Below are positions 3,117 to 26,800 of a DNA stretch of 64,000 nt, piece by piece; position 1 is the first letter of the stretch; each line of letters starts with the position of its first letter. The stretch spans positions 1 through 64,000 of the forward strand of contig JAURNW010000007.1 in the NCBI GenBank assembly GCA_030829985.1, given 5' to 3'. The translations under genes were made by a program, and so were the position numbers. The DNA comes from Gammaproteobacteria bacterium. GTDB taxonomy: Bacteria > Pseudomonadota > Gammaproteobacteria > Eutrophobiales > Eutrophobiaceae. The notes beneath the pieces were generated by a model. The model was given only the letters and a program-made list of their open reading frames with translations. It was not told the origin of the DNA and did no database searches.

Positions 3117-3617
3117 TTGAAAGAACTCCAGTTACTCGATGATGGCGATTCATTCAGGAAATCTGCCTATAAGTTCATAAAAGAATCTGAATTTTTTTCC
3201 GATTTTGGCGACGACGAGATCGAAATACTCGCGCGCTGGACCAAGGCTTATTCAGCGGATACCGGTTGCGTGGTGTTAAATGAGGGCGATAAGAGCAACT
3301 GTCTTTGTATTATCGTGAAAGGTTCAATCAATATATTCAAACGTTTGCCCAATGATGAGCACTTGAAGATTGCCGAAATCTGTACTGGAGAATCGATTGG
3401 AGAAATGGGTATTATTGACGGAGAACCTTTCTCAGCTTCGGGGATAGCATCTGAAGATTCGATTGTTTTATTAATCACTCGCGAAGATTTTGAAGACATC
3501 ATCAGACAGAATCTCGAGTTAGGTAATAAACTGTTATGGAAGCTTGCCAAAATATTAACCGCACGCCTCAGACACACGACAAAACGACTGGCTGAATTAC
3601 TTACCGGGAAGAAATAA
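3117..3617 (+). CDS. Stand-alone cyclic-nucleotide-binding-domain protein
   Basis: A 166-residue protein made almost entirely of one CRP-like beta-roll, about residues 25-145. The phosphate-binding cassette is at 91-109 (GESIGEMGIIDGEPFSASG). The arginine that normally contacts the cyclic phosphate is replaced by Phe (about residue 105), so cAMP or cGMP binding is doubtful. No helix-turn-helix follows; the last 25 residues are a basic helix. It is therefore more likely a sensor or partner protein than a DNA-binding regulator. The frame opens with TTG at 3117 and no ATG fits, so the exact start is uncertain. Its last 17 bases overlap the 3' end of the PPTase gene on the other strand, so the two transcripts would be antisense to each other. 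Confidence 0.7.
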   Translation: MKELQLLDDGDSFRKSAYKFIKESEFFSDFGDDEIEILARWTKAYSADTGCVVLNEGDKSNCLCIIVKGSINIFKRLPNDEHLKIAEICTGESIGEMGIIDGEPFSASGIASEDSIVLLITREDFEDIIRQNLELGNKLLWKLAKILTARLRHTTKRLAELLTGKK

Positions 3618-4326
3618 TAATAGCGCTATTTTTTGTTGTAGCCGTTAATGCTGTCTTGTAGTTATCGAGCTTCATTAGTTCGTAACAAAACCATTTATCA
3701 TTCAGTTTTTCAGCCGTTATTATTTCACGGGCATCATCAATACTCTCATTAATAGGCACAGAAAATTTATCCAGCCCAAATGATATACCCTGCCCTGTTG
3801 CCTTGATAAAAGATTCCTTTCTGGCCCAGATACGATAGAAGGCATCACACTGCTGTTTCTCATCTAAATTAATTAGATCATTCCTTTCCTTCTCACTAAA
3901 AAATCGATTCGATAATGATTTATAGTCTATATCCGGATTGACTTCTTCTATATCAACACCGACTTTATTTTCTAATGTCATCGCAATAAGGGCATAGTCA
4001 CCGGAATGAGAAATATTGAATTCTATTGGTACACGATTTATATAATCTTTGACTACAGGTTTGCCCTGTTTTTCATATGAAAAAACGATATCTCTTGGCT
4101 CTTTACCGAGGTTACTCGATAACAACAATCTTAATAGACTTCTTGTAATGACAAACTGCTCTCTCTTTTGCTCAATCCTTAACCGATCAGCACGATGCCC
4201 CTCATCTTCGGGTAGATATTCAACCAAGTCCTTACTGTTGAATAAACTGATTTGGTAGAGGAACACATGAATTTTATCAGCGGATAAAACCGGTTTTTCT
4301 TTTAAAACCTGCTCAATTCTGCTCAT
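3601..4326 (-). CDS. Sfp-type 4'-phosphopantetheinyl transferase
   Basis: Transfers phosphopantetheine from CoA to the active-site serine of carrier proteins. All family signatures are visible: FNISHSGDYALIA near residue 103, GVDIEEV with the metal ligands D125 and E127, and WARKESFIKATGQG at 167-179 with E171 and K175. At 241 residues it is a normal Sfp/Gsp-type enzyme. The ATG at 4326, four bases after the oleD stop, is preferred to a TTG at 4341 that would overlap oleD. As the last gene of the lipid locus it is the natural activator of the four ACP domains in the PfaA-type megasynthase, the role PfaE plays in polyunsaturated fatty acid clusters (inference from position). The 3' end overlaps the cyclic-nucleotide-binding protein gene. 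Confidence 0.92.
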   Translation of the reverse strand: MSRIEQVLKEKPVLSADKIHVFLYQISLFNSKDLVEYLPEDEGHRADRLRIEQKREQFVITRSLLRLLLSSNLGKEPRDIVFSYEKQGKPVVKDYINRVPIEFNISHSGDYALIAMTLENKVGVDIEEVNPDIDYKSLSNRFFSEKERNDLINLDEKQQCDAFYRIWARKESFIKATGQGISFGLDKFSVPINESIDDAREIITAEKLNDKWFCYELMKLDNYKTALTATTKNSAIIISSR

Positions 4327-4330
4327 TAAT

Positions 4331-5320
4331 TTATGTCTCAAATGATTGCTTCAAGCGTTTCATTCCTTCATCGATACTGATGGCGGGTTGATATGCTAAA
4401 TCATGTTTTGCTGCTGATAAGTCAAACCAGTGGGACGTAGATAATTGCCTGGCGACGAAGCGTGTCATTAAGGGCTCTTGTTTAATATTGAATAATCGAT
4501 AAATACATTCGAATATGACGCCGATATAATAAGCCGTATTTGCATTGAGTGTCTTTGTCACCGATGGTAGTTCAGCAGCTGCTAATATTTTATTGATTAA
4601 ATTCGTCATCGTTAACGGTTCGTCATTACTTATGAAATAGGCTTTGCCCGCACAGATACTATCAACAGACTGGAGACAATCTGCCGCAAGCAAATGTGCC
4701 TGAACTGCATTATCGATGTAACATGAATCAACCTTGTTATCTTTACTGCCCACCAATCTCAACCGGCCTGCTTTGGCACGTTCGATCAGGCGTGGCGCAA
4801 GATGCCGATCGCCCGGCCCCCAGATCAAATGTGGACGTAACGCTACTGTCTTTAGATCGGAATTATTAGCCTTGAGTATAATTTGTTCGGCTTCCGCTTT
4901 GGTCTTCTGATAGGCATTAAAAAATGTTTTTGCATATGGGGTTGTTTCATCAATACCTGCTTCATCAGTGCCATCAAAGACAACACTTGGGGTACTAGTA
5001 TAAACAAGATATGGAATATGATTGTTTTCACACGCCTTAATTACATTTTGTGTGGCAATAACATTGGCTTGATAATACTCATCATAATCACCCCAGACAC
5101 CGGCCTTGGCAGCGACATGAAAGATAATGTCACAGCCTCTCGCTGCTGCATCAATATCATTTCCATTACTTACATCGGCTTGAATTGCTTCGACACCCAA
5201 CTCTGATAAGAAAGGATAATGACCGCGTTGTATAGTTTTTACACTATCGCCTCTTTTTAATAATGCTTTGACAATAGCACCGCCAAGAAACCCACCACCA
5301 CCGGTCACCAGCGCCTTCAT
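4331..5320 (-). CDS. oleD: OleD-type 2-alkyl-3-ketoalkanoate reductase
   Basis: NAD(P)-dependent extended short-chain dehydrogenase, 329 residues. In head-to-head olefin synthesis OleD reduces the OleA product to a 2-alkyl-3-hydroxy acid. A TGGGGFLG nucleotide loop lies at residues 6-13, and the catalytic YQKTK (Y137, K141) is present. The 3-beta-hydroxysteroid-dehydrogenase-like C-terminal half matches OleD rather than sugar epimerases. The ATG at 5320 is chosen over a frame start at 5341 because it forms an ATGA overlap with the oleC stop and has GGAG eight bases upstream. Its immediate partners are oleC (overlapping) and the PPTase (four bases downstream), which implies one transcript. Confidence 0.88.
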   Translation of the reverse strand: MKALVTGGGGFLGGAIVKALLKRGDSVKTIQRGHYPFLSELGVEAIQADVSNGNDIDAAARGCDIIFHVAAKAGVWGDYDEYYQANVIATQNVIKACENNHIPYLVYTSTPSVVFDGTDEAGIDETTPYAKTFFNAYQKTKAEAEQIILKANNSDLKTVALRPHLIWGPGDRHLAPRLIERAKAGRLRLVGSKDNKVDSCYIDNAVQAHLLAADCLQSVDSICAGKAYFISNDEPLTMTNLINKILAAAELPSVTKTLNANTAYYIGVIFECIYRLFNIKQEPLMTRFVARQLSTSHWFDLSAAKHDLAYQPAISIDEGMKRLKQSFET

Positions 5321-6966
5321 GCAAACTTCTCCTTTGCCCATAGCGCCAGTTTTTCACGACCAATCTTGGCATTGTGGCGTATATCAACCGGGAAACCCGA
5401 ATGAAATAAAACATGTTTTATATTTTTGGTTATCTCGTGATTACGAGCCAGTATTAATAATTCCTGTTTCAATTCATCACTATTAAAGCCCTTATGCTCT
5501 GGCTCTATCTCAACGCAGATGATCGGTATGGTTTCATTGTCTATCGTTACACCAACCAGAGCAGTGCGAAAAACGAAAGGATGAGTGTTGAATATAGCTT
5601 CACAACAAATCGTGAATAAGGTTTCATCCTTAATAATAACGCGGTGACTTTTACGTCCGCAAAACCAAAGTCTGTTTTGCACATCAATATAACCCACATC
5701 ACCCATGCGATGATAAAAACCATCCTCAGTACGTATTTTTGCCAGACCTGTTTCCTTGTGTCGATTAAAATAGGAACGCGTTACCTGCGGCCCTTTAACA
5801 CATATCTCACCAATCTCATTAACCGGTAATTCCAGTTCCTCACTCCAGCTTGCAATCACATCATCATTTAGTTTGATGATTTTGATATCCAGATCATCAA
5901 CCGCTTTACCAACACAGACACCTTTACCCTGCATTGTTGCTTCGGCAGTTTCATTCAATATTTCATTACTACCAATAGAACTGACTGGTAGTGATTCGGT
6001 TGCGCCATAAGGTGTGAATATCTGCACATCACTTTTAAGCAATGTTTTAAATCTTTTTAAAACCAATGGCGCCACTGGTGCGCCGGCAGATAAAACACGT
6101 CTCAATGTAGGTAGATTAATACCTTTACCTTCACTCCACTTACTAACCCGATTTAATAACGCGGGCGAACCAAACATAGTTGTACAACCATATTGTGTAA
6201 CTGCATCAATAATCATTTTCGGATTAACATGACCGGGACGGGTAAAATCCATTCGTGGAATAATAGACGTCATCCCTAAAGCAGGTGCAAATAATGAAAA
6301 TAACGGGAAGGTAGCTAAATCTATTTCTCCCGGTTTAATGTCATAGAGTTTTTTTAAGGCTTCAACCTGGGCTGTAAAATTGCCATGTGAATAGACGACA
6401 CCTTTAGGAACCCCGGTACTGCCGCTGGTAAAAAGAATGGCCGCTGTATCTTCGGCTTTAGTTTGCGCGCTCTGAAAATCATGCTTTTTACCTTCTGTTT
6501 TTATCTGGTCAAGCCTCGTGATAAAAGGCGTTAATAAAGCATTATTGCCAACAAGCACATTTTTAGTAATGGTCTTTTTTGCCCAGCCTAATCCTAGTCG
6601 TGCTATGTGCGCCGTGCTGATACCGATAAAGGCTTCCGCTTCTGCTTCAGCAAGACACTTGCCCAGATTTTTAATCCCCATGCCGGGATCAACCGCAACC
6701 AGAACCGATTCTAATTTGTACAAGGCAAATACCAGCGCAAAAAAATCCAGCCCCGGTTTAACCATTAACACAGTTCGTGTGCCTTTGCCTATGCCATAAG
6801 CCTTAAGTCCCGATGCAACAATATCGCTTGCGTGATTCAATTGTTGGTAAGTATAAGAAGTTTTATAACGATCTGAAGCAGATTTATTCTGAACGACAAC
6901 CGCATAGCTATCGGGTTGTTGCCCTGCTATTACCGGCAGGTAAGATGCAATGTTTGCTGTAATCAT
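5317..6966 (-). CDS. oleC: OleC beta-lactone synthetase
   Basis: ANL-superfamily adenylating enzyme of 549 residues. OleC converts the 2-alkyl-3-hydroxy acid made by OleA and OleD into a cis beta-lactone with ATP. The P-loop-like motif TSGSTGVPKG sits at 180-189, the adenine-binding segment reads YGATES, the GDVGYID motif precedes the hinge, and a C-terminal lysine (K534, in HNAKIGREKL) is in the usual catalytic place. Long-chain acyl-CoA ligases share these motifs, but the flanking oleB and oleD settle the assignment. It ends in a four-base overlap with oleD and lies 32 bases after oleB. Confidence 0.9.
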   Translation of the reverse strand: MITANIASYLPVIAGQQPDSYAVVVQNKSASDRYKTSYTYQQLNHASDIVASGLKAYGIGKGTRTVLMVKPGLDFFALVFALYKLESVLVAVDPGMGIKNLGKCLAEAEAEAFIGISTAHIARLGLGWAKKTITKNVLVGNNALLTPFITRLDQIKTEGKKHDFQSAQTKAEDTAAILFTSGSTGVPKGVVYSHGNFTAQVEALKKLYDIKPGEIDLATFPLFSLFAPALGMTSIIPRMDFTRPGHVNPKMIIDAVTQYGCTTMFGSPALLNRVSKWSEGKGINLPTLRRVLSAGAPVAPLVLKRFKTLLKSDVQIFTPYGATESLPVSSIGSNEILNETAEATMQGKGVCVGKAVDDLDIKIIKLNDDVIASWSEELELPVNEIGEICVKGPQVTRSYFNRHKETGLAKIRTEDGFYHRMGDVGYIDVQNRLWFCGRKSHRVIIKDETLFTICCEAIFNTHPFVFRTALVGVTIDNETIPIICVEIEPEHKGFNSDELKQELLILARNHEITKNIKHVLFHSGFPVDIRHNAKIGREKLALWAKEKFA

Positions 6967-6998
6967 TACAAACCGGGATAAATTATCTGGTGGCAGAC

Positions 6999-7895
6999 TT
7001 AAGTCTGCACCTCTGCATTCTTTTCAAGAAACGATTGAATGATTGGAATAACTTCATCAGCCGCATCTTCCAACAGATAATGCCCGGCATCAAATTCATG
7101 ATATTCAGCATTCGGCAATCGCTTCTTCCATTCATTCAAATAATGTCGATCAAAAACAAAATCATAAACACCCCAACAAACCAGGACAGGAATCGCTGAA
7201 AATTGTTTTAGATTTTTATCGACTTGATCGACGATGTCATAAGAAACATGATCTTCATCCAATGGAATATCTTCCACAAAGCGAAGTACTGAAAGTCTGT
7301 TTTTCCAGTTATCATAAGGTGCCAAATAGGCATTTTTTATCGCCTCAGTCATTGGCTTTCGCGTCACACATTGCGTAACTGCGCCACGACAAAATGCATT
7401 GAACCCCTGATTCAATAATGAACCAAGTACCGGAGTACGACTTAATTTTAATTGCCACGGAATTTGTATATCTTTTGGGATATGAAATCCGGCTGTGTTA
7501 GAGATGACTAGACGTTTTATTTTTTCCGGGTAACGCGTTGCATAGGCCATTCCAATCATGCCGCCCCAATCGTGAACAATCAGGGTCAGCTTATTATCGA
7601 TCTCAAGACTAGTTAACAATTCATCAAGATCATCTACGCGCTGTTCAAGCGTAAACTCGTACCCATTCTTGTCGGGTTTATCCGATAAACCCATACCAAT
7701 ATGGTCAGGTACAACACAATGGTATTTATTAATTAAGGCATTAAATAGATGTCGGTAATAAAAAGACCAGCTCGGATTACCATGTAACATAATAATGGTT
7801 TCTGCATTATTCTTGCCGCCTTCGAGATAATGCATACGTTTATTATTAATAGACGTATAACAGGAAGATTCAGAGGGATAATCCGGATATTGCAT
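6999..7895 (-). CDS. oleB: OleB beta-lactone decarboxylase
   Basis: Alpha/beta hydrolase of the haloalkane-dehalogenase-like group, 298 residues. OleB opens the OleC beta-lactone and releases CO2 to leave a cis-olefin. The oxyanion motif HGNPSW is at 38-43, the nucleophile is Asp109 in VHDWGG rather than a serine, and the catalytic histidine is H272 (DAGHYLLED). The Asp nucleophile is what separates OleB and dehalogenases from ordinary esterases. It precedes oleC by 32 bases. A 115-base gap and the dinB gene separate it from oleA, which is unusual for an ole cluster. A true dehalogenase is the alternative, made unlikely by the neighbours. Confidence 0.9.
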   Translation of the reverse strand: MQYPDYPSESSCYTSINNKRMHYLEGGKNNAETIIMLHGNPSWSFYYRHLFNALINKYHCVVPDHIGMGLSDKPDKNGYEFTLEQRVDDLDELLTSLEIDNKLTLIVHDWGGMIGMAYATRYPEKIKRLVISNTAGFHIPKDIQIPWQLKLSRTPVLGSLLNQGFNAFCRGAVTQCVTRKPMTEAIKNAYLAPYDNWKNRLSVLRFVEDIPLDEDHVSYDIVDQVDKNLKQFSAIPVLVCWGVYDFVFDRHYLNEWKKRLPNAEYHEFDAGHYLLEDAADEVIPIIQSFLEKNAEVQT

Positions 7896-9153: not shown

Positions 9154-9357
9154 CTAGCGCAGTACAAAAGGTGTAAATGATGATGCGCTGGTTTTTTTTC
9201 TCTTTTTATTTTCAAATGGCAACATCTTTTCAGATAAGGCAGTAATCTCTTTCAGACTGACCGATGGCGTTTTTATTTTAAATGACTCGGGATTAGGAAA
9301 AGTAAGCTTGTCTTGTTTATTTTTCATAAAACATAATACGTTTAAAACCCTTACCAT
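9154..9357 (-). CDS. Small basic protein of unknown function
   Basis: Not recognised. The frame gives 67 residues from an ATG at 9357 that overlaps the end of oleA by seven bases, or 57 from an ATG at 9327 (MKNKQDKLTF). The product is rich in Lys, Ser and Thr with a basic KKRKK cluster near the C-terminus, and has no signal peptide or membrane segment. The tight overlap with oleA and the matching strand suggest co-transcription. No strong ribosome site is visible for either start. Confidence 0.45.
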   Translation of the reverse strand: MVRVLNVLCFMKNKQDKLTFPNPESFKIKTPSVSLKEITALSEKMLPFENKKRKKTSASSFTPFVLR

Positions 9358-10550
9358 TCCCAGCCAAGCATCAAGCAGTTCAAACCACTACCAATTCCCA
9401 GAAAACTGACACGATCACCTTTCTTTAAGAACTGACGCTGTTCTGCAATTGCAGCAGTTAATGGCACAGAGACTGTGCCGATATTGCCGAGATATTTATA
9501 AGTACTAAAATCTTTTTCCGGAGAGATACCAAGTTCTCTCAAGATCGTATCGCGATGCCCTTGTCCTACCTGATGACAAATAACTTTATCAACCTGATCT
9601 CTGGCCCAACCCATCTTGGTTAGAAATGAACCCCAGGTTTTAACGCCTAATTTGGCACCGTGTTTTAATACGGATACCGAATCGGTAGACATAAATTCGG
9701 ATAAGGCTGCCGGTAATTTTTCAGATGGCATAATACCTGCCAATGCCGGAGGTAATTTTTGACTGGTCATGACGTCTTTAATCGCAGATGGAAGTACTTC
9801 TGGATGCATCACCTGATCAATTGCTGCGAGTAATTTGTCAGGAGAGAACATCAATTCTCCCAGTGCTACCGGTGATAAAGTGACTCCCCAACGACAAAGT
9901 TTATGATGTTCAGGAGCCGACTGGTTAGCACCACCCAATAAACGATGCGTCTGTTTGTTATCAAAAGAACCGTCGGTAAGCAAAACTGCCGCCGCGCCAG
10001 AACCACCGGTTAAGGTCGCAAGGGATCGGGAAAACATGTCCATGGTTCTATCATTCAACATGCGGTCAATCATAATCTCAACGATCTCACGTGAGGTTTC
10101 ACAGGAGACAACCATCCCGGCACGAATCTGTTTTAATTCAATCCGATTAGCAATGTCGATAATTCCATTCATAACACCCAGGCAGGCATTGGAAATATCA
10201 TAGATATTGGCATCATCACTGATACCTAATTGGGCTGCTACGGCACAGGCTGTAGCAGGCTCAAAATTCTCTCGACACACTCCCGTATAGACCAACGCTT
10301 CAACATCTTTCGCCTCGACATTGGATTGTTCTAATGCTTTACGAGCAGCACTTGCCGCACCATCGGAAAGGACATGCCCCTCTTCCCACCAGCGGCGCTC
10401 GTGTATACCGGTCAAAGCCTCTAATTGTCCGGGGGCTATATGCAGTGCGTCATACATCGGCATTAAGCGCTGCTCAAGGTCGTCGGAGGTAATGACTACC
10501 GGCGGCAACTCGTAGCCGATAGACTCCATATGTACTCGGGTATATTTCAT
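9351..10550 (-). CDS. oleA: OleA head-to-head acyl condensing enzyme
   Basis: Thiolase-fold enzyme that joins two fatty acyl thioesters into a 2-alkyl-3-keto acid, the committed step of long-chain olefin synthesis. Active-site residues match the OleA family: Cys123 in SNACLGVMNG, Glu97 in ENFEPATA (the general base that marks OleA), His326 in CHQVGQGH and Asn356 in LGNIGT. At 399 residues it is about 50 longer than usual OleA proteins. The excess is explained by a block of four 13-residue repeats at 237-288 inserted before the TDSVSVLKHG segment. It lies downstream of the PfaC-type gene across a 254-base gap and is separated from oleBCD by dinB. FabH-type ketosynthase III is the alternative, but the Glu and the operon context favour OleA. 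Confidence 0.92.
   Translation of the reverse strand: MKYTRVHMESIGYELPPVVITSDDLEQRLMPMYDALHIAPGQLEALTGIHERRWWEEGHVLSDGAASAARKALEQSNVEAKDVEALVYTGVCRENFEPATACAVAAQLGISDDANIYDISNACLGVMNGIIDIANRIELKQIRAGMVVSCETSREIVEIMIDRMLNDRTMDMFSRSLATLTGGSGAAAVLLTDGSFDNKQTHRLLGGANQSAPEHHKLCRWGVTLSPVALGELMFSPDKLLAAIDQVMHPEVLPSAIKDVMTSQKLPPALAGIMPSEKLPAALSEFMSTDSVSVLKHGAKLGVKTWGSFLTKMGWARDQVDKVICHQVGQGHRDTILRELGISPEKDFSTYKYLGNIGTVSVPLTAAIAEQRQFLKKGDRVSFLGIGSGLNCLMLGWEW
9687..9842 (-). repeat. Four 39-bp in-frame tandem repeats inside oleA
   Basis: Encodes residues 237-288 of OleA as four units of 13 residues: PDKLLAAIDQVMH, PEVLPSAIKDVMT, SQKLPPALAGIMP and SEKLPAALSEFMS. The pattern is roughly x-E-K-L-P-x-A-L-x-x-V-M-x, probably four short amphipathic helices. 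The DNA units are only partly alike (for example a shared GGTAATTTTT core in two), so the expansion is not recent. Confidence 0.8.
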
Positions 10551-10601
10551 GGATCAGCTCGCATATTGCATAAGAATGCCGGATGGTCGCGCAGGACAGA
10601 T

Positions 10602-10681
10602 GTTCGGTCTGCGTGCTCGCGACTGAGCAGGTAGTTATTCATACCTGTGAGGAAGCATGTGCGCAGAGCGAATAGCTGAAC
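10602..10681. repeat. Imperfect intergenic palindrome between oleA and the PfaC-type gene
   Basis: The 254-base gap 10551-10804 has no convincing gene. Its centre is a hairpin, CAGGTA at 10628-10633 pairing with TACCTG at 10642-10647. Outer arms pair imperfectly: GTTC and TCTGCG on the left against CGCAGA and GAAC on the right. The layout (distinct central hairpin, semi-conserved outer arms containing GTGCGCAG) resembles the palindrome at 27600-27745. Confidence 0.45.
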
Positions 10682-10804
10682 CAGTGAGACCCGGCATAAG
10701 CATTTGCTAAAAGTTACTCGATCCCTGAAATATTCGTATAATAAATTCATATTTAAAATCATATCTGATAATTGCTGTTCTTATGCAATATTCGAGCTCT
10801 TATT

Positions 10805-13800
10805 CTATGTGATTCGGAGTGCAAAATCCTTCATCTGATAGATAATTCTGCCATCTACAGTCAAAAAACCGTCCGCTTTAATGGACTTTGCCTGATCATC
10901 AACTGCAGTAATCACTGCCTGCACCGTGACCGTATCATCAACCGGCAAGATTTGCCCTCTATATACCCACTCATGCGGCTGATTTAAGGCCATACTCTCA
11001 AAGGCACAAGTGCCAATTTGAAACTCGTCCTGCCAACGTTTCCAGGCAAATACCTTCAATAATTGCATAAATGATTCAAGACCCAATGAGCCCGGCCATA
11101 CTGGATCTTCATAAAAATGCGCCTTAAAAAACCAGGCATCCGGCTTTACCTTAGCTTTTCCTTCAATGAATCCCAGGCCGTTAGGCCCACCACTCATGCT
11201 TAATATAGTTATTTCATCAACCATACGCATCATTGCGTCTGGCATCGGCGCCTCTGTCGGATAAGCAAATGTCTCAAACTCGTTACGCTCCGCATCACTG
11301 GCCTGATATGGGATAGCTTCACGTATTCCCACCTGATCGGCCAAAGCTTCTTTAGAGAAAAATCCAAAATAGGTATTTCCCTGATAAACCAGTCCCCGAT
11401 CGGACTGCATTTCATAATCAAAATTCTGAATAATCATGCCGCCAGATTGAGAGACATTGGTAATTTTCACCTTTGTGGTGACCGTGCCTATATCCGGCGT
11501 AACTTTGATAAATTGCGTTGCCTTACCGCCGAGATTTCTAAAGGAAATGTCGGTCTCGCTGGTCAAAGCTGAACCCAGATAAGCCGCCAACCAACCACAA
11601 GGTTGTAAGGCGACTTCCAGCAATACGGCAAATGGCATATAGGGTTGATTGTCTTCAGTGAAAAACCATTCATCAACCGGAACATCATATTCCGCTTCAA
11701 TAACACCACCGGCATTTAAAACCCACTGCTCACAATCTTTAATAGAGGTGATGCGATCCAGAAATTTATACGGTGGACCGGGCAGCCGGGCAATCTTACG
11801 GTCCTTATCAAATACTTTATATCGATCGCCAAACGCTTCGGAAGGTTTGCCAATAGCAAAAGCGAGGATGGATTCATTATCAAACAAAACCTGTTTCGAT
11901 TTCTCTATATTCTGCTTACTCCAGAGTGCTTCCAATCGTCCGCGTTTTAAACCGCTGAGTTGTACCGACATATTTTTCATCTGCACGATGGCACGGTGAT
12001 CACCATACATTAAGGCATCAGCAAGAACATAAGGTGTCCCATCTTCCTGGTAACCGATTTCTTTTAGCGTTATTTCATATTGAACCGCTTTGGTTTGTTC
12101 TGTCACCTGACCTCGGCATTTAAGCTGACTGACTTCGCCGATAATCGGCTCATAGACAAACTCATCTAACTCACCAATCCAACCCATACGCAATAGATAA
12201 ACCCGCAAGGTATGCAAACAACATTCATACATTAATGTTCCCGGCATAACCCGGTCATCAACAAAATGGCAGGTGAGGAACCAGTCATCAGGATGTATAT
12301 CCGCTTCACCGGTGATTTGACCAATTCCAAATCGTCCACCTTCAGGATCTAGTTTTAAGATGCGATGCACCAGCGTCATAAGACCACCGGGTAAACCTAC
12401 TGGATTATTTAAATCATTCTTTGCGAATGCATTACCAAAACAGGAAACAAGATCACCCTGTCGTAAGGCATTTAATTGTTCATCGTTATAACTCTCCACC
12501 CGCATAGGAACCAACTCATGGTAGTTTCCAGTGAGTTTCCCTTTCTCCTGTTGCTTTTCCATGGAGGTTAAAACGATTCCCTGCCCTGCATCCAGCTCTT
12601 GCTGACTGAAAAAACCGGCACAACCCTGGGTCATGGTTAATAGCGGTTCACCGTTGACGCTACCTTCAAAATTAAAACGAAATAAACGTGTATCACCCTG
12701 ACTAAAAAAGTTCTCGATATGAATATCGTAATGAATCGTCTGTCCTGCTGTCGGTAATGGGCCATGAAAGGTGATACGTGCATCAAGCAGCCGGTAAACA
12801 GCCAATCCTTTTGTTATATGATCAATACCCAGATAACCCGATAAAAATAGATCAGCCTGTCCTGCTTCAACCGCGATACAGGTCGGGATTCGACCTGAAT
12901 CCAGATACCATGCATCTGCTAATACATCATGTTCTGTAATCACCGTGCCCTGGGCTGTTGGGTTATGCATCAACGAGTCAGCCTCGCCTATAACATCAAG
13001 TATGCGGTCAACCAACATCAGAGGTTCATCAGGCAAACGTACTCGCGAAGGATGTTTATCAATGTCGGAAAAACGATCGCCAAGCATCTTGCCGATCGAG
13101 CCAGTCGCAAATTCCATACATTGCTCACGATTATATAAACAATCAATCTGTTGTTCTGGTTTGTATTGTTCTGCACTAGTGACAGGGGCTTGTGATAAAT
13201 CATAGTTGCCACCATTTACTAACTGCATCTGCATACTGATGGCTTGTTCGAGCGTTCTGGTCATGCCCTGATTCACACGTAAAAATGTTTCTTGTGCTTC
13301 AGCACGCGCTAATTCCGTTTGTTGCATCTGCTGGATCAAAGGTTGTAAACCATCATTAGCCGCCATGGGTAATGAGCTTATATTTTGTTGAGGAATATTT
13401 ATTTCAGCACTGTTTTCTATTGAATGTTTTTTCTTTAATTCAACGATTGAAGATTCATTCTCTGTCGTTTTTGATTTGGGCGGTAATGGAACGTTAAAGG
13501 CTTCGCCTCCCGTCTTAACGCTAATATAATTTTTATATTCAGCCTTATTTTTAATTCCAGTAATGGCAAACTGTGATAAATCTATCGATGTACCTTCTGC
13601 ATAGAGTTGTCCAAGAACCTGCATTAGATTGTCAATATTGTCCTGACCTTTAACACAGATGGCTTTGGCAAAATGCGGTTTGTCTGCAAGTATCTGATCG
13701 ATCATCCTGCTACAGGAACCACCTGGCCCCATTTCGATGAACATACGTACACCATCATCATAAGCACTGTTAATCACGCGAGTATAATCAAATGGTGCCA

Positions 13801-16800
13801 AGGCTTGATCCAGAATTGAATCGGCAGCCGAGTCCTGTGTGACTTCATAAGCACCGCCACGAATACCACTATAAAATGTCACATCGTCTGGAGGTGTCGT
13901 CTCGAATATATGCAGGTCGCGATAAGCTTTTGCCACAGGCTTTGCAACCTCACAATGCACTGTGGTTACGCCCGATAAAGGATGATAATGAACGGCGAGT
14001 TGTTTGACTGCCTTGTTCAACGCAGTCCTATCACCGCCTATGACACATTCATTCGGTGTATTAATGATTAATAAATACACATGCTCATAATGTTCAAGGG
14101 CTGCCCTGACTGTATCGGCACTGGCATTAACAACACCCAGTGCCCAATCAATCGGCTGATCTGTTTCCCATGCCTTTTGTACTGATTTACAAGGCCCTGC
14201 GAGTTCTTCAGTAAACAATGTGCTTTGTTGAATACGTTGTAGCATTTCATCACGCGCAGTCCATGTACGTGTGGAGAAAAAACCGGCAGTCTCGCCCAAA
14301 CTATAACCGATCACGGCATCGGGTTTTATTTCAAAACTACTGACAACATCACTAACAAAGGTCCCCAACCAAACCTGACCAAAGATAACTTCTTCATGAC
14401 TGAGTTCTTTATCGTCATTATTTTGAGTCTGCCAAAAGCGACCTTTAGCAAATTGAGAAGCCAGTGTTTGATTTTCTGCATCGAGTTTTTCCAACACTTC
14501 AGGAAAGGCTACCCCCAACTCCTGGCCCATACCCCAAAAATGATTACCTGAACCGGGATAAACAAACGCTATTTTTCCTGTTTTGCATAACGGTTCAGCA
14601 GAATAAAAACAGTGTCCGTTACTAATCGATACATTATTTTCAATTGCAATTATTACATCTTTAATAGCCGCTTTAAATTCAATACTATTTTTAAACAATA
14701 AAGCCACACGATATTGTTCATTATCTTGTTGATAATTTAATGCATCATCAAAATTTAATTTTTTCAGTTTACTAATCAATAAGTCTGGTTTGTTTGCAGA
14801 AACGTTTATCAGACACGGCAAATATTTTTTTGAAATCAAACATGCATCACCTTCCTGTAACAGGACACTGACACAGTTTCCATCGACACTTGTACTATTC
14901 ACCAGAGTTAGTCGCGGCCCCTTATTTCTATCCTTCAACCAATAACGTGTTTGTAAATTATCTTCGACTGGTAATAGTCGATATCGTAATTCACAAATAG
15001 CACTGGCAACGGACATCAGTCCGGTCGCAGCACCAGAATGCCCTAATGCGAAACTATTTTGCTTAACATTTTTAAGAACAGGCATATCGGGCAGGACTTC
15101 ATCTTTGCGCGAAAAAATAATCTGATCGATTTCATCAAGATGACACGCTGCATCAGAACAGGCATTCTCGATTGCGGTAATTTGTGCTGATTGTGTTGTA
15201 GCAACACCGATTCCTTTTATGACTGAATATATTTGGTCACCATCACGCAGTGCATCTGCATGTCGTTTTAAAATAAATGCTGTCGCACCATCAGCAACAA
15301 CCGATTTATCATGACACTCCAGATGTCCCTTAACTGCTCTGAGATCACTGGCTAAATCAACTGCACCGACGATAGCCTGATCCAGTTCGTTTTGTTGTAA
15401 TGCCCGTACACCGGATTCCAATGCACGTAGACCGGATGTTTCTTCTGCTGAGACAGTAAACGACGGACCACCGATACGAAATGCACGAGCGATACGACTT
15501 GCAACAATACCGCCCAATGCACCCATAGTACGGTTTGCACTTAAGGCTGGACCACATGCTGCTCTAAGATTTTCTATCCATTCATTTAATTCAGTGTCAT
15601 TGAGTTTAATACCTAATCGTTGTAACCATTCCCGTGCATACTTTTTCTGCATCCAGCGAAAATGAAAATTCGTTGTATTTAAATCAAGTGCAATACCAAT
15701 GAAAACACCTGTTCGGCACTGCTGTTCTGATGTCAATTCAGAAAGCCCGGCATCATCTAAAGCATTGGCAGCAACTTCCAGCATTAACAGTTGTTGCGGC
15801 AACATCTCTTGCAACTCTGCCGGTGGAATTCGATAACGTCCGAGAGGTACGTTTACTTTATTGATTAAATAGCCATCACAACCGTTGCTCTCAGCACCCC
15901 ACCAATGTTCAGGTTGCGCGGACGATATATCAACACCGAATAAAACGGCTTCATCAAATTCCTGTTGATCATTCCATGGACCAAGTTGCGTCTCCATTCC
16001 GACTATCGCAATATTTTTATCTTCAGGATTGATGCTGACTAGCGAAGCCTTTTCAATTGTTTCGTTTTTGTATTCTTCCAATAAAACATGTGCATTAATC
16101 CCTCCAAACCCAAAACCACTGATTGCTGCACGACGTGGAGCATCGCTATCGACTTGCCAAGGCTCCGGTTGTGCTAATACCCTGAAAGGACTGTTGCTTA
16201 AATCGATTTTATTTGTTGGTGATTCAAAATTTGCTGTGGGTGGTAAGACACGGTGCTTCATTGCCAGCAATGTTTTCATCAATGCAGCGGCACCGGCCGC
16301 TGTTAATAAATGGCCGACATTACTTTTAACAGAACCGATAACGCACTCGCCATCAACAGCATGACTTTTCCAAAGATTATTTAATGAAGTGAACTCAACA
16401 CCATCCCCTACCGGTGTGCCGGTTCCATGACATTCAATATGTTGTACCTGGTTCGGTAACCAACCGGCCTTCGCATAAGCCGACTGCATAGCGCGGGATT
16501 GCCCCTCTGCATCCGGTGACATGATATTACCTTCAATATCATTAGATAGACCAATGCCTGCAATCGTTGCATAAACATGATCTCCCTGTGCGATTGCATC
16601 TTCCAGGCGCTTTAATATAAAAATACCAGCACCCTCGCCAACAACAAGCCCATCTGCCTTACTATCAAACGGCGAACACCGACCTGACTTTGAAATCGCG
16701 TTCAGTTGTGAAAATCCCATCTGTGTATAAAGACAATCAGGCCGTGATACACCACCGGCCAACATCGCATCAACACGACCCGCTAATAATTCATCAACAG

Positions 16801-17398
16801 CGTACTTCAATGAATACAGAGATGAGGCGCAGGCCGCATCCAACGTATAAGCACCGGCACCAAGACCTAATGCTTTTGCCAATAATCCTCCGGGTAAACC
16901 GGCAACATAGCGATTCAATGCTTCAGTTGTTTCTGGTTGATTTGTTGATTCAGCTTTTAACTGCTTTTCAAATAAGAATTTAAATATCTCATCGCTAAAT
17001 TGCGAAGCGGATTCTGTTGGTAAAACAATATTACCGATGATAACGCCAACACGTTCTTTATTAATCGATTCAGTCCTGGCATCAGCCCATGCATCGCGTC
17101 CTGCGTGTAACAAAATCTGATACATAGGATCCAGACGATTCAATAAGTCTTCATCAACATTGAATCCATCAGGATTAAATTTGAAGTCCTGTATTAAGCA
17201 GGCACGTCGAGAATTAACTTTATCGGCTTCAAGGGTGGGAGAATACAATTCATCCGGTTTCAATCGCCAACGGTCTGCACCGACTTCAATCGCACTATCT
17301 TTCGCCGCCAGAATATTCTGCCAGAATTCATCAAGATCGCGTGCACCGGGGAAAACCCCTCCGAGACCGACAATTGCGATTTTAGTTGATGGTTTCAA
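10805..17398 (-). CDS. pfaC: PfaC-type megasynthase: KS-CLF-AT-DH-DH
   Basis: A 2197-residue subunit of a polyunsaturated-fatty-acid-type synthase. Domains: ketosynthase 1-445 (Cys190 in DAACASS, His324 in CHGTGTP, His363 in SNVGHL); chain-length factor about 462-850, where the Cys is replaced (SAEETSG, Glu652); acyltransferase about 943-1245 (Ser1033 in GYSLGE, ending in EMGPGGSCS, the PfaB-type signature); a Ser-rich linker and a Gln-rich helix 1300-1400; then four hot-dog folds forming two FabA-like dehydratases, about 1440-1810 and 1855-2197, with His1711 (TCHFVDD, VMPG) and His2094 (KAHFYEDPVWPG). In the classical marine clusters the AT is a separate PfaB protein; here it is fused, as in the myxobacterial and thraustochytrid types, but no C-terminal acylglycerolphosphate acyltransferase is present. 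The start is TTG at 17398; no in-frame ATG suits the KS N-terminus. Confidence 0.92.
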   Translation of the reverse strand: MKPSTKIAIVGLGGVFPGARDLDEFWQNILAAKDSAIEVGADRWRLKPDELYSPTLEADKVNSRRACLIQDFKFNPDGFNVDEDLLNRLDPMYQILLHAGRDAWADARTESINKERVGVIIGNIVLPTESASQFSDEIFKFLFEKQLKAESTNQPETTEALNRYVAGLPGGLLAKALGLGAGAYTLDAACASSLYSLKYAVDELLAGRVDAMLAGGVSRPDCLYTQMGFSQLNAISKSGRCSPFDSKADGLVVGEGAGIFILKRLEDAIAQGDHVYATIAGIGLSNDIEGNIMSPDAEGQSRAMQSAYAKAGWLPNQVQHIECHGTGTPVGDGVEFTSLNNLWKSHAVDGECVIGSVKSNVGHLLTAAGAAALMKTLLAMKHRVLPPTANFESPTNKIDLSNSPFRVLAQPEPWQVDSDAPRRAAISGFGFGGINAHVLLEEYKNETIEKASLVSINPEDKNIAIVGMETQLGPWNDQQEFDEAVLFGVDISSAQPEHWWGAESNGCDGYLINKVNVPLGRYRIPPAELQEMLPQQLLMLEVAANALDDAGLSELTSEQQCRTGVFIGIALDLNTTNFHFRWMQKKYAREWLQRLGIKLNDTELNEWIENLRAACGPALSANRTMGALGGIVASRIARAFRIGGPSFTVSAEETSGLRALESGVRALQQNELDQAIVGAVDLASDLRAVKGHLECHDKSVVADGATAFILKRHADALRDGDQIYSVIKGIGVATTQSAQITAIENACSDAACHLDEIDQIIFSRKDEVLPDMPVLKNVKQNSFALGHSGAATGLMSVASAICELRYRLLPVEDNLQTRYWLKDRNKGPRLTLVNSTSVDGNCVSVLLQEGDACLISKKYLPCLINVSANKPDLLISKLKKLNFDDALNYQQDNEQYRVALLFKNSIEFKAAIKDVIIAIENNVSISNGHCFYSAEPLCKTGKIAFVYPGSGNHFWGMGQELGVAFPEVLEKLDAENQTLASQFAKGRFWQTQNNDDKELSHEEVIFGQVWLGTFVSDVVSSFEIKPDAVIGYSLGETAGFFSTRTWTARDEMLQRIQQSTLFTEELAGPCKSVQKAWETDQPIDWALGVVNASADTVRAALEHYEHVYLLIINTPNECVIGGDRTALNKAVKQLAVHYHPLSGVTTVHCEVAKPVAKAYRDLHIFETTPPDDVTFYSGIRGGAYEVTQDSAADSILDQALAPFDYTRVINSAYDDGVRMFIEMGPGGSCSRMIDQILADKPHFAKAICVKGQDNIDNLMQVLGQLYAEGTSIDLSQFAITGIKNKAEYKNYISVKTGGEAFNVPLPPKSKTTENESSIVELKKKHSIENSAEINIPQQNISSLPMAANDGLQPLIQQMQQTELARAEAQETFLRVNQGMTRTLEQAISMQMQLVNGGNYDLSQAPVTSAEQYKPEQQIDCLYNREQCMEFATGSIGKMLGDRFSDIDKHPSRVRLPDEPLMLVDRILDVIGEADSLMHNPTAQGTVITEHDVLADAWYLDSGRIPTCIAVEAGQADLFLSGYLGIDHITKGLAVYRLLDARITFHGPLPTAGQTIHYDIHIENFFSQGDTRLFRFNFEGSVNGEPLLTMTQGCAGFFSQQELDAGQGIVLTSMEKQQEKGKLTGNYHELVPMRVESYNDEQLNALRQGDLVSCFGNAFAKNDLNNPVGLPGGLMTLVHRILKLDPEGGRFGIGQITGEADIHPDDWFLTCHFVDDRVMPGTLMYECCLHTLRVYLLRMGWIGELDEFVYEPIIGEVSQLKCRGQVTEQTKAVQYEITLKEIGYQEDGTPYVLADALMYGDHRAIVQMKNMSVQLSGLKRGRLEALWSKQNIEKSKQVLFDNESILAFAIGKPSEAFGDRYKVFDKDRKIARLPGPPYKFLDRITSIKDCEQWVLNAGGVIEAEYDVPVDEWFFTEDNQPYMPFAVLLEVALQPCGWLAAYLGSALTSETDISFRNLGGKATQFIKVTPDIGTVTTKVKITNVSQSGGMIIQNFDYEMQSDRGLVYQGNTYFGFFSKEALADQVGIREAIPYQASDAERNEFETFAYPTEAPMPDAMMRMVDEITILSMSGGPNGLGFIEGKAKVKPDAWFFKAHFYEDPVWPGSLGLESFMQLLKVFAWKRWQDEFQIGTCAFESMALNQPHEWVYRGQILPVDDTVTVQAVITAVDDQAKSIKADGFLTVDGRIIYQMKDFALRIT

Positions 17399-17554
17399 TT
17401 TTATCTTTTTCTATAAGTATGAGTGAGCAGACTATTGTTTGGATTTATTTGGCTATTTTATCCTAAATAAAACCCAAAATATTATGATTACCTGATTTTT
17501 TGTTTTATTTGATTATCTGCTACTGGTCAGGATAAACCTGTTCTGATGGACTAT
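17399..17554. other. AT-rich leader of the PfaC-type gene
   Basis: 156 very AT-rich bases between the 77-residue ORF and the TTG start of the PfaC-type gene. It probably holds a promoter for the downstream half of the locus, since pfaC is cut off from pfaA by the inserted block, but no confident -35/-10 pair was found. Confidence 0.25.
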
Positions 17555-17788
17555 TTAGTCTGATTTGAGATTTTTCTCACAGAAGTTCTGCACAAGCTCA
17601 ACCTCGTTTTGCATAAAACAATATACTTCAAGGAAGTTATAACGCTTGATCAGATTTAATACCCGCATTGAATGGTCTCGTTCTGCATGCTTCATACTTT
17701 TATCCATGATCGCTAATATAAATTGTCGATCATCAACAGAAAGAAATTGCCAGTAAGCCAGACCAATAACAATTGCGGTATGTTGCAC
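17555..17788 (-). CDS. Small protein of unknown function (77 residues)
   Basis: Not recognised. Begins with GTG at 17788, with GGGAG six bases upstream, which supports translation. The product is mixed charged and hydrophobic with three cysteines and no signal peptide. The same frame stays open upstream for about 40 more codons without an ATG, so this could be the 3' part of a decayed longer gene. The 51-residue frame just upstream ends 17 bases before this start, so the two may form a tiny operon. Confidence 0.4.
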   Translation of the reverse strand: MQHTAIVIGLAYWQFLSVDDRQFILAIMDKSMKHAERDHSMRVLNLIKRYNFLEVYCFMQNEVELVQNFCEKNLKSD

Positions 17789-17805
17789 ACTCGGCTCCCA
17801 AGGTC

Positions 17806-17961
17806 CTAGTTCATCGGCACTCCATTCAACAAAACCGCACCTTCGATACTGAACGCCTTGCCGGTATTCGCCAGCACTGGTGTCAATGACAGGGTTAATG
17901 CCATCAATACGAGCGACTTAAAGAAAGCGGATGGTGTGTGAGTGCGGTTATTTGAATTCAT
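17806..17961 (-). CDS. Possible short secreted peptide (51 residues)
   Basis: An ATG at 17961 opens 51 codons ending in TAG at 17806. The N-terminus is a convincing signal peptide: polar start, core FFKSLVLMALTLSLTPV and a cleavage site PVLA/NT near residue 31. Only about 20 residues would be secreted (start NTGKAFSIEGAV). No ribosome site is seen. Either a genuine short exported peptide or the beginning of a larger exported protein that has been truncated. The second reading is favoured by the open overlapping frame that runs into the 77-residue ORF. Confidence 0.35.
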   Translation of the reverse strand: MNSNNRTHTPSAFFKSLVLMALTLSLTPVLANTGKAFSIEGAVLLNGVPMN

Positions 17962-18000
17962 AATGATAATGTGTGTATGTCCAATATAGATGCGATATTT

Positions 18001-20897: not shown

Positions 20898-23800
20898 TCA
20901 CACATTTTCCTGTTTGCCCAGTTCATTTTCTTTAAAGGCGGTGAGTAATGACCCGTCACGGACACATTCATAGCCTTCCATTATTCCGATTAACTGGCCT
21001 TTATTATCAATAAACTCTATTGATGCATTGGCACGGTGATCGGTATGTTCGAGCACCTCGGCAATTATCTTTGCGCCCTCTTTTGGATAGCTGCGTTGAT
21101 ACTGGCGATAATATTTAATCGCCGTTGGTAATGAACCGATGCCTTGTTGTTCAAAACTCCATAAGATCATTAACTGAAATGCTGAATCCAGTATCAACGG
21201 ATCGGTTAACCAACTGGAACGAATCGGTTGTTGCATCCATACCGTAGGCGGTGGTGCAGCTGACACGTTTGCTACAATACCTTTATCACTACAGTGTGTT
21301 ACCTCACGGATGCCATGTAGATGTTGTCCATGGAATAACTGTCCGTTTTGATAATACTCACCTTGTTGATATTGATAGTTACCCTTAACGGCTATTAGTT
21401 TTGGTAATACATCTTTTTCGTAGGTATCGACTAACACCATTACCGCACTGGCATGAAGTAGATTACCCGAGCGTAATTCGACCGGAACATAGCCAACATT
21501 GTCTTTTTGTATCATGGCACCTGCCAGTATTCGACAATGGATGTTCTCATCAGACTTTAAGGTAACCCCTTTCAATACACGGAAGTCATCAAAGCCATGG
21601 AATTGCATTCCTGGATTCAAATGCAATGCGCCATGCGCAAACCATTCAATAATTACAGCGACCGGTAATACGGCATGACCATTCATTACATGTGATGTCA
21701 GGAAAGCATAAGAACTCACAGAAAGATCGCGTTCGAATGCCATAGTCAAATCACCGCGTTCAGTAATCACTGATACCGAACTAACGACATCTGCTAGAGG
21801 TATCGTCTGTAAAAGACTTTCCAATTCACCAAGGACTACTGTTTCGACCGGGCCATCTGATTCTATTTCCCGGATCAAATACTCTGCACCGGCATCCAGT
21901 CCAATGACACCGACACCTTCATCTTCAAATAACTTTTTCAACGCGGGCGTAACCATGCCACCATCCCATGGACCCCAGTTAACAGACAGTACCTTACAAT
22001 CTTTTCTTTTTTGATTTTCAGACTGTGCAATTTTGTTTAATACTTCATTGGCGGCCGCATAATCAACTTGTCCTTTTCGGCCAAGACGTGCTGTCGTAGA
22101 TGAAAATAACACTAGCAACTTCAAGTTATCGTCTCGCGTCGCGGATAACAAACTTTGCAAACCTTCGACCTTGGTAGAAAAAACAGTACTAAACTGTTCT
22201 TCTGTTTTATCTTCTATTAATCGGTCGGCCAAAACGCCAGCGGCATGTATAACACCGCTAACATTACCTAATTCAATCCGCGCCATATCAATAACATTGG
22301 CAACAGCATCCGTGTTAGTCACATCGACCGAGGCATACTGAACCTTTACGCCAGTCTGTTCGATACGTTGCAAGCTGTTATTGATTTCACGTTGTGCCAG
22401 GATTGACTGATAGTGTTTTTCAAGATCAGCAGGGCGTAATTTTTCCGTTGTATTTTCAAGAATCGCTTTTTTAATACTCGCAGGATCGACAAGTGAAGAT
22501 AACCACGTTGGCTCCGCCTGAGGCTCGGGACTTCTACCCAATAATAAAAGGTTAGATTTATAAGTCTCTGCAATCTTGACGGCAACCTGAGCGGTTACAC
22601 CGCGCGCACCACCGGAGATAACAATCAAATCATCTTGATTGAGTAATGTCTGTTTAGATTTAATCACAGGCAGAGTTTCTTCTAGCAAAGACAAACATAT
22701 AACTTGTTCATCACTCAAACCGACTTCCAGTGGTCCTTCAAGAAAGAGTTCTTTTTTAAGCAAGGATATTGACGCCGTATCTGAATCGACATCGATAGAT
22801 TTACACGCGACTTCGGGCCATTCCTTGTCGGCTGTTTTAATAATGCCGTACAGCCCAGCCTGAGTAGCATCGCTTTTCAAATCACCGGCAAAACCAAAGC
22901 TGCCACCGTGTGTGGTGATCGAAGTCAGTATGCCATTAGCCTGTTTAAGTACTGCACTGCAGGCTTGCACCAGCGCGAAGGTTTCGAGCAACCATTGTTT
23001 ATCCGGGTTTGCAGAAGCACAAACAATTAAACCACCTAACTTATTATTTGGTTTGACGTCATTCGCAACAAGTTTTGTTTTATAACCCTTGCCTTTTAAT
23101 TCGCTTGCTAGATTCTCTGCCAGTTTTCCACCTGCTTTCGTGATCCAGATTTCTTTACTGGTATCGAATGCAATCTCATTACGCTTATCAGCTTGTTCAA
23201 GTTGTGTAACATGAACAACTCTTCTGACTATTCTTGATTCTTTCTCTACTCGTGTTTCATTAGCAACAAGCGATTCACTTTTACTTTCAGTAAAAACCGA
23301 TGAGCCCGTTTGCTCATTCATATATTCTATGATCTGTTGCAAGGTCTGCAATGCAGCCAAATCATCTGCAGCAACCATCGGCAAGTCCGGCATCTTATCC
23401 TGCAACGCTGATAAAATTTCGACACGCTTAATCGAATCGATACCCAGATCACTGTCCAGATGCATTTCCAGATTTAACATGTCCACTGGATAGCCGGTTT
23501 TATCGGCGACAACCTCTAACAATATTTCTGCAAGGTTCGTGTCCGTTGTGGTTGCCGGGATGACTTCTGCTGAGACATTAAACACATCGACAATCGACTG
23601 CAGTGTTTGCAAGGCGGCCATGTCATCTGGACTGACTGATGGTAGTGCAGGAATACGTTCCTGTATGGCAGATAATATTTCTACGCGTTTGATTGAATCG
23701 ATACCCAAATCGCTATCCAGATTCATATCGAGATTAAGCATCTCGGTTGGATAACCGGTTTTATCGGCAACGACTTCAAGTAAGGTTTCTGCAAAACCAC

Positions 23801-26800
23801 TAATCACATTTGTCTCTGCTGGAACTACTGCTGATGTTGTTTGTTCAGCAACAAATAATTCTGTAATAGAACGCAGTGTTTGTAGTTGCCCGAGTTCATC
23901 AGGACTTACCGTTGGTAATTCCGGCATTGCTTCCTGTAAGGCTGATAATATTTCAACCCGTTTGATCGAGTCGATACCCAAATCACTATCCAGGTTCATA
24001 TCCAGATCCAACATCTCAATTGGATAGCCGGTTTTTTCAGCAACTATCGCTAATAATATTTTTTCAAAGTTGTTATCAACTTTGGTCTCATGAGTAATCG
24101 CTGCCTTGCCTGTTTGTTCAACGACAGGTCTACCCGCGACTATAAATTCAACAATGTGTTGCAGGAATTGAAAGGTTCCTAATTCTTCAGGATTGACCGC
24201 AGCAGACCAGGGTAGTTTTTCCTGTAGTGCAGAAAGAATTTCGACACGTTTTATCGAATCAATCCCCAAATCCGTATCCAGACTCATATCCAGACTTAAC
24301 ATCTCTAATGGATAACCGGTTTTTTCTGATACCACACTTAACAACAGGTTATTGATATCAACATCAGATTGTTGAGTGCTAACTGGTGCTGCATGTTTTG
24401 TTTCTTCAATCTCTTTAATAACGGGTTTTGTAACCGGTGTTGGCTCGACACTATTCTTTTGAACCACCGAGTTCAATTTTATCTGTTGTTGCTTCTGCTC
24501 TGCTAAAGGCAAGCCTGACATTAATCGTTGTTGTTGTTCTAACAATGATTGAATCGATTGTTGTGCAGTCTCCTGTCCTTCGAGATATTGCTGATGCAGA
24601 CGTGCTGTTTGTTCCTGCATTTTTTGCAGGGCAAGAATGCTTTGCTGTGTCGCTTGTAGCAATTGGTTATTCTGTTGCGGTGCTGCAGGTATTTGAACCT
24701 GAACAGGCTCAGTCCTGGTTACATCATCTGTCATGTTGCTTATTGTCTTTTTAGGTTTGCTTGGTGGTCGTGCCGGGCGCGGCTGCATCACATTGGCACC
24801 ACTGATTGATACCGTCATGGCTGGCTTTGCGTCTTTTGCAGGTCGTTCGAGTTTCGAACAAGCTTCATCCCATTTTGCCAGATCAGCCTGATTTCCTTTG
24901 GCAGCCAGCGTTGCCAGAGCAACCGCTAAATCATATTGACCTTGTTTCTTTCCTGCAGACGCATCTATAGCCATCGCCGTCATCTCTTTATCAGCAAGGA
25001 TAGAGCTTATTAAACCGGTTAAGGTTTTTCCGGGACCGACTTCAATAAAGGTATTGAACCCGTCTGTGTATAATTTCTCAACTTGTTCAACAAAACGCAC
25101 TGGCGCGGCCAGTTGATTTGCAAGTAATTGTTTAGCTGCTTCTGAATCTGTTGGATAAGCTTCGGTAGTTGTATTTGATAATACAGGATACGCATTTTCG
25201 GAGAATGTGAATGAAGCCATTGCCTCAGCAAAGGGTTTAGCAGCATCCGCAACAAACGCACTATGAAACGCGGCGGCAACGGGTAGTTTTATTGCGCGGA
25301 TTTTTTCAGCCTTGGCCAATTTGGCAAAACTATCGATTTGATCTGTCGCGCCGGACAACACGACCTGATTCGGCGAATTATGATTCGCGATAACAAGATC
25401 AATTTTATTGTCCGTTAATATTTTTTTAGTTTGTTCATAAGACGCAACTACTGCCAGCATGGAACCACGATCGCCTTCACCCGCTGCCATTAGTTCACCA
25501 CGCAGTCGTGATAATAGATGTAAGGTTTCAGTATCGTAATAACCGGCCGCTGAAAGTGCGGTTAATTCACCATAACTGTGTCCTATAGCAGCTGTTGCCT
25601 GGACACCAAAATGATTTAATACATCGAGCGCGCCGATGCTAACCGCACCAATGGCCGGTTGTGCATTTTGTGTTTGACGTAATGTGTTCTCCTGTTCTTT
25701 TTCATCTGCCTTGGAAAAAACAGGAATAGGATACAAGACATCAAGCAAATTTTGTTTTCCGGTCGCGACACTGAATAATTGGTTCGCTTGTTCCAACGCA
25801 TTTAAGAATTGTGGGAACTGGCAAGCCAGATCGCGGCACATACCAACATATTGTGACCCCTGACCCGGAAAGACAAAGGCAATCTTTTTATTCGTTGCTG
25901 TTGAACTATAGCTAACGCCATTTGGCATTTGCCAGGTGTGTTCAGATGAAGCTTCGAGTTTGGTTTTAATATCGGCAATAAATTTTTTCAGATCTGAATT
26001 TGTTTTTTCAAGCACTATCGTCAAACGATGTGCAGCTGTTTTTTTAAATGATTGGCAGGAGTCATAAGCAAAAAATCGAAGTTCATTCCATGACTGCAAT
26101 AATGAATCATCGGGTAATTGTTTAATCAATTCAGCTTTAGTCTCGCCACCAAGCGCAATAATCAAGACTTGTCCGTCCCATTCGATATCTGTTTTAGTTT
26201 CTTCCGCTTCTTCTAATACACAATGAAAATTACTACCGCCAAAACCAAACGCACTTAATGCGGCACGCCGTGGTGTTGCCTGTGTTTTTAGCCAGGGGCG
26301 TTTAATTGAATTTAAATAGATCGGTGCAGTACCGGGATTAATGAGTTCCAAGGGTTCATCAACCTTGATACTCGGCGGCAATACTTTATGTTTTAACGCC
26401 ATTGCCGTCTTGATGAGACCGGCGATACCTGCTGCTGCCTTGGTATGACCTATCATCGATTTTACCGAACCGACAGCGCACCATGTTTCTGCATCATTAT
26501 CCTGTCGATAAACACCGGATAAGGCCTTCGCTTCAACCGCATCACCAACAGAAGTGCCGGTGCCGTGTGCTTCGACCAGTTCAATACTTCGTGGCGTGAC
26601 ATCCGCTTCGCGATAGGCATTCCACAATGCCTTGGTTTGACCTTCGGCACTAGGCGCATATATCGCGTTGCCTTTACCATCGGAGGATGATCCCATACCA
26701 CGTAATACGGCATAGATCTTGTCACCATCACGCTCGGCATCATCAAGACGTTTTAAAATAACCGCGCCCAGACCTTCACCGAGGATTGTGCCATCACCTT

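Follow-up and report, generated by a model that had tools for sequence, protein, structure and literature searches.

The window, that is, the whole 64,000-nucleotide stretch of DNA analysed here, carries an oleA gene together with oleBCD (4331-7895) and the genes of a Pfa synthase (Table 1). The 2197-residue protein is a PfaB-PfaC fusion of the sort that defines Type I pfa-like clusters, and the window cluster fits this kind, which has already been described with ole genes in Deltaproteobacteria and Gemmata obscuriglobus (PMC3098273). The pfaA, pfaBC fusion, pfaD and oleABCD genes are common to both. The window cluster differs in belonging to uncultivated Gammaproteobacteria and in an insert within OleA; Gemmataceae-type OleA also have an insert at this site, but one unrelated to it.

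Table 1. Position of the pfa-ole genes and of the OleA features in the window
Feature	Position	Strand	Basis
Phosphopantetheinyl transferase (pfaE-like)	3601..4341	-	TIGR00556, 57 bits, over cut-off
oleD, 2-alkyl-3-oxoalkanoate reductase	4331..5341	-	NF042423, 492 bits, below 580 cut-off
oleC, beta-lactone synthetase	5317..6966	-	NF006754 over cut-off; NF045785, 658 bits, below 850 cut-off
oleB	6999..7895	-	matches to alpha/beta hydrolase families, below their cut-offs; lies downstream of oleA in most loci of relatives
oleA, 399 aa, thiolase-superfamily enzyme of head-to-head acyl condensation	9351..10550	-	ORF, NCBIfam NF006720, AlphaFold/Foldseek
Catalytic Asn356	9483..9485	-	invariant
Catalytic His326 (X. 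campestris His285)	9573..9575	-	invariant
52-residue insert, residues 236-287, four 13-residue units	9690..9845	-	self-alignment statistics; alignment with 80 OleA loci
Unit 4, PSEKLPAALSEFM, residues 275-287	9690..9728	-	self-alignment; resembles native rim segment of insert-free relatives
Unit 3, TSQKLPPALAGIM, residues 262-274	9729..9767	-	self-alignment
Unit 2, HPEVLPSAIKDVM, residues 249-261	9768..9806	-	self-alignment
Unit 1, SPDKLLAAIDQVM, residues 236-248	9807..9845	-	self-alignment
Linker VTLSPVALGELMF, residues 223-235, between conserved LCRWG and unit 1; predicted helix 227-234	9846..9884	-	
Catalytic Cys123 (X. campestris Cys143)	10182..10184	-	invariant in 77 OleA
Glu97 (X. campestris Glu117), Glu enabling head-to-head condensation	10260..10262	-	invariant
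pfaBC fusion, 2197 aa (KS-CLF, PfaB-like AT and DH domains)	10805..17398	-	TIGR02813, TIGR02816 and FabA-type stretches; long models below cut-off
pfaA, four ACP domains	20898..27596	-	four DSIKR ACP motifs
pfaD, enoyl reductase	27769..29448	-	TIGR02814, 641 bits, over cut-off

Other elements are found within and beside the cluster. The 254 bp that separate pfaBC from oleA (10556-10798) are bounded by 21-nt inverted repeats that are 95% complementary, resembling a small mobile element with one copy in the genome; the same gap measures about 12 bp in most relatives. A gene for a DinB-type DNA polymerase IV (8011-9117) is located between oleA and oleB, and it occupies this place in many close relatives and is absent there in other lineages. 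The pfaBC and pfaA genes are split by a segment (17399-20897) that includes two nucleotide-sugar genes (18116-20127), a small HTH ORF and a 10-bp tandem repeat (17998-18051), unlike the relatives L062 and L063, in which pfaA and pfaC are adjacent. Hopanoid-type genes (29715-38663), assigned by sequence reading as squalene/phytoene synthase, squalene-hopene cyclase, MMPL transporter and HpnA-like, adjoin the pfa-ole cluster.

The 399-residue ORF is clearly a member of the OleA family as judged from its sequence, and head-to-head condensation is predicted for it. The NF006720/PRK09258 (OleA) profile matched over its full length (positions 1-338 of 338) with 484.8 bits against a cut-off of 285, and the AlphaFold model matched the X. 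campestris OleA structure 4kti in Foldseek with an E value of 7.4e-41 and a TM score of 0.93 by target. All of the 77 OleA proteins compared have E97, C123, H326 and N356, in agreement with the earlier note, which had read the catalytic residues as intact. The X. campestris OleA (PDB 4kti, 3row, 4ku3; 338 aa) has the same fold, with Cys, His, Asn and Glu117 conserved at about 30% identity, but it presents just a few residues (GNLDR) where the window OleA has the linker and the 52-residue insert, and sampled genomes with OleA of this type lack pfaD. The Shewanella-type OleA (about 349 aa), which has a Pfa synthase as partner and draws on it (PMC6463001), belongs to the same Pfa-associated subfamily as the window OleA, both sharing the LCxWG...EFM(R/S)TD motifs; it is found in genomes with pfaD and, unlike the window protein, has no insert.

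The repeat units and their position in OleA

The four tandem 13-residue units described in the earlier note are real, with a periodicity far above chance. The self-alignment of the insert at shifts 13 and 26 scored 114, a value reached by none of 20,000 shuffles (best of periods 7-20; mean -12.4, sd 10.3) and by none of 17,249 other 52-residue segments drawn from the long open reading frames of the 64-kb window. The insert does lie where the earlier note had placed it (9687-9842, residues 237-288), although the best register starts one residue earlier (236-287), and the pattern EKLPxALxxVM given there is loose: units 3 and 4 come nearest to it, but unit 1 is without the second Pro and unit 2 has V for K. 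The consensus includes Pro at position 2 and/or 6, L/I at 5, A/V at 8, I/L at 9, V/I/F at 12 and Met at 13, with hydrophobic moments of 0.28-0.61 per unit. A Pfam search (E 0.001) revealed no known domain within the insert. Units match one another at 4-7 of 13 residues and at 41-62% of DNA bases, the mark of an old duplication; this divergence, together with the lack of any Tandem Repeats Finder match at the units, rules out a recent duplication at the DNA level. The insert had also been taken to account for the excess size of the protein, which holds in comparison with Pfa-associated OleA of 346-349 residues, since 399-347 equals 52, but falls short against the X. campestris type (338 aa), where the excess is 61.

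Among 26 gammaproteobacterial sequences, mean identity is 68% in the insert and 85% in the core. The dN/dS ratio is about 0.11 for the insert and 0.03 for the core, rough figures because mean pS is near 0.77 even in the pairs with unsaturated synonymous sites that were used. The length is invariant in these 26 proteins and in two Planctomycetota, and twelve insert residues (P237, D238, K239, L240, P250, P254, M261, P267, P275, L279, P280, M287) do not vary in a 17-sequence family alignment. These sequence comparisons show the insert to be under purifying selection.

The position of the insert was deduced with the help of FabH (beta-ketoacyl-ACP synthase III), which belongs to the same superfamily, catalyzes a different reaction and has no insert. 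M287 precedes the catalytic His326 by 39 residues and the matching Met of the genome's own FabH precedes its His by 37, a spacing from which M287 corresponds to Met207 in FabH numbering. In FabH, Met207 and Gly209 line the CoA/pantetheine tunnel. By this numbering the insert directly precedes the Met207 equivalent and lies at the mouth of the pantetheine channel. In the AlphaFold prediction, carried out on 77 sequences, the OleA core is mostly above 90, whereas the insert has a pLDDT of 46-66, below 50 at residues 246-266, so that its helical arrangement (helices 227-234, 237-246, 253-262, 268-271 and 279-282, of low confidence within the insert) stays tentative. For the Gemmata insert one longer helix is predicted, also with low confidence. 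A helical platform, as previously suggested, is therefore partly in line with the model, which sets a row of short helices at the channel rim where an ACP arm would enter, but with low confidence. Disorder and variability between close relatives had been named as evidence against such a platform: the low model confidence goes in that direction and the fixed length goes against it.

Distribution of the insert

All 22 further OleA orthologues of the window's GTDB family align across the insert, the complete ones having 399 residues and 76-98% identity and one of the 22 being broken by a contig end. Named genomes were scanned with the peptide patterns MESIGYEL and Y[TSA]GVCREN, a two-pattern search that could miss inserts in more distant OleA proteins, and the best 80 of 90 loci were analysed. 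Among these 80, the same insert was found in three Planctomycetota MAGs (L082, L083 and L084; 71% identity), with equal length in two of them and two additional residues in the third, and it was absent from the OleA of other lineages, mostly 346-362 residues long. Several environmental clusters in this set (L076, L085, L111, L123, L133) stand under the names Klebsiella pneumoniae, Akkermansia muciniphila and Bordetella parapertussis, which look wrong. Class- and phylum-wide samples outside the family contained insert-free OleA only, of the 338-residue and the 347-349-residue (approximate) kinds, with one further insert-free OleA in a 361-residue frame.

In an OleA tree built with the insert columns removed, the insert-bearing proteins form one clade of 29 rows (support 96/87) whose sister is the insert-free Humisphaera protein L088. 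The insert was gained a single time and is a fixed, lineage-specific trait of one evolutionary branch, and the cluster has apparently moved between Planctomycetota and Gammaproteobacteria. Both OleA and pfaC of L082, L083 and L084 are near those of the gammaproteobacterial family, which suggests transfer of the whole cluster across phyla, the alternative being mis-binned contigs.

An unrelated Ala/Val-rich insert is located at the same site in OleA from Gemmataceae and related bacteria (11 rows, support 100/100), where the segment varies in length from 39 to 64 residues (L094, L097, L099, L101-L104, L108, L113, L117, L119). In L108 the insert shows a 14-residue periodicity that none of 5000 shuffles matched; in the others a repeat is weaker or missing. 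L086 OleA has a different, short insert (26 aa), also at this site. The occurrence of unrelated inserts at one site suggests a channel rim at which helical additions are tolerated or have been acquired repeatedly.

Relation of the insert to the Pfa synthase

The earlier note had suggested that the repeats dock OleA to the Pfa ACPs or to OleBCD for direct hand-over of a polyunsaturated chain, and had asked whether the insert occurs only where pfa genes are linked. A tblastn search of the window proteins against the best 80 of 90 loci found pfaC in the flank of all 29 insert-bearing OleA, but also of 34 of the 40 insert-free and all 11 Gemmataceae-type OleA, which argues against a special link; because insert-free OleA are pfa-linked too, Pfa linkage was discarded as the explanation of the insert. 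The Fisher test of 29/29 versus 34/40 (p = 0.036) was given no weight, as the insert represents one gain and the rows are therefore not independent. Of the six insert-free loci without flanking pfaC, five come from genomes in which another region matches PfaA above the curated cut-off, which is not so for L127. Counts of PfaA model matches over genomes are weak on their own, since ordinary ketosynthases match this model too, and we have therefore relied on synteny and over-cut-off matches. PfaD was found in 22 of 23 insert-bearing genomes of the family, in all nine sampled genomes with a 347-349-residue OleA and in none of the eight sampled with Xanthomonas-like types; an insert common in organisms without Pfa was not seen. 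In the sampled genomes, Pfa is associated with a short native stretch that extends the insert site by about 10 residues, and not with the 52-residue repeat.

When expressed in E. coli together with Pfa, the 38-kDa OleA of Shewanella pealeana makes the 31:8 ketone; it draws on Pfa directly and apparently binds the Pfa ACPs (PMC6463001). A protein of this size is too small to hold the insert, which is not required for taking Pfa chains and elaborates a step that other OleA carry out without it. A basic surface complementary to the acidic ACPs was also not found, judged by net charge only: the insert has a net charge of 0 to -5 and few basic residues in 28 of 28 cases, the Pfa ACPs being at -9 to -11 (0 to +1 in helix II). 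A co-adapted partner was looked for as well and rejected, as no indel of at least 3 residues in OleB, OleC or OleD matches the insert clade, with a single trivial one of 3 residues in PfaC.

Possible roles of the insert

Our preferred reading, held with slightly less than even confidence, is that the insert forms a lineage-specific amphipathic helical collar on the rim of the OleA pantetheine/acyl channel. Repeated rounds of tandem duplication may have produced the units from a native segment of the rim that has (L/V)S(E/Q)FM at its end and directly precedes the M-x-T-D strip in relatives lacking the insert; the likeness can be followed from APEGVSQFM in L088 and ILPASLASQFTQFM in L091 to KLPAALSEFM in unit 4 of the window. 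Each unit could then fold as a short helix that is capped by Pro and has an L--AL--VM face, and the four together might cover the channel mouth as a mobile lid, both steps being weaker. Such a lid would shield or steer either the acyl chain, which is long and polyunsaturated, or the unstable beta-keto acid; bracing of the OleA dimer, or of the hand-over to OleBCD, might be a further role.

Among the rivals we place hand-over to OleBCD in the lead and docking of Pfa ACPs behind it. Repeats that dock OleA to the OleBCD assembly and pass on the unstable beta-keto acid are an unlikely explanation, but one to which the amphipathic, conserved units and the exit of the product at the channel rim would be suited; a passage of PMC6463001 cites the OleA-OleBCD contact as weak, so an extra arm could help. 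Against it, oleBCD also lies beside nearly all insert-free OleA (best 80 of 90 loci), and the lack of marker indels in OleB, OleC and OleD points the same way. A platform on which Pfa ACP domains dock to hand over the polyunsaturated chain directly appears less likely still: the site of the insert at the pantetheine channel, the flanking pfaC in every insert-bearing locus and the transfer from Pfa ACPs to the Shewanella OleA are in its favor, but this last protein and the other 349-residue Shewanella-type OleA from pfaD-bearing genomes have no insert, most insert-free loci are pfa-linked and the charges do not complement each other.

Marginally less probable than ACP docking is a neutral or mildly structural elaboration, in which duplications arose in a tolerant surface loop and were afterwards constrained by folding only. 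The unrelated, variable inserts at the same site (Gemmataceae-type and L086), the lower conservation relative to the core and the low pLDDT would agree with this, whereas the absence of length variation in the 26 gammaproteobacterial and two Planctomycetota proteins, the twelve invariant residues and the dN/dS value speak against it. A tolerated elaboration without a distinct job would look much like the collar. The least probable rival is the attachment of OleA to the membrane or a hydrocarbon phase through amphipathic helices; the hydrophobic moments, the very hydrophobic product of OleA and the Ala/Val-rich helical insert of the Gemmataceae type are consistent with it, but the neutral to acidic character, unlike that of typical binders of anionic membranes, and the prolines that break long helices in every unit are not. 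It is also doubtful, to the same degree as the neutral elaboration, that the unrelated amphipathic rim additions of at least three lineages (the 4 x 13 repeats in Gammaproteobacteria and Phycisphaera-like bacteria, the Gemmataceae Ala/Val-rich helix and the short L086 insert) represent a convergent gate or hand-over arm for polyunsaturated chains on the route from Pfa to OleA to OleBCD.

Insert-bearing, insert-free and Gemmataceae-type OleA constitute a ready natural experiment. Should the insert have no distinct job, it would cleanly illustrate an insertion hotspot that the enzyme tolerates. Should the collar govern the capture of chains or the transfer of the product, it would show how a small repeat module tunes a ketosynthase-like enzyme in nature, and it would offer a handle on the way intermediates pass between OleA, Pfa and OleBCD.
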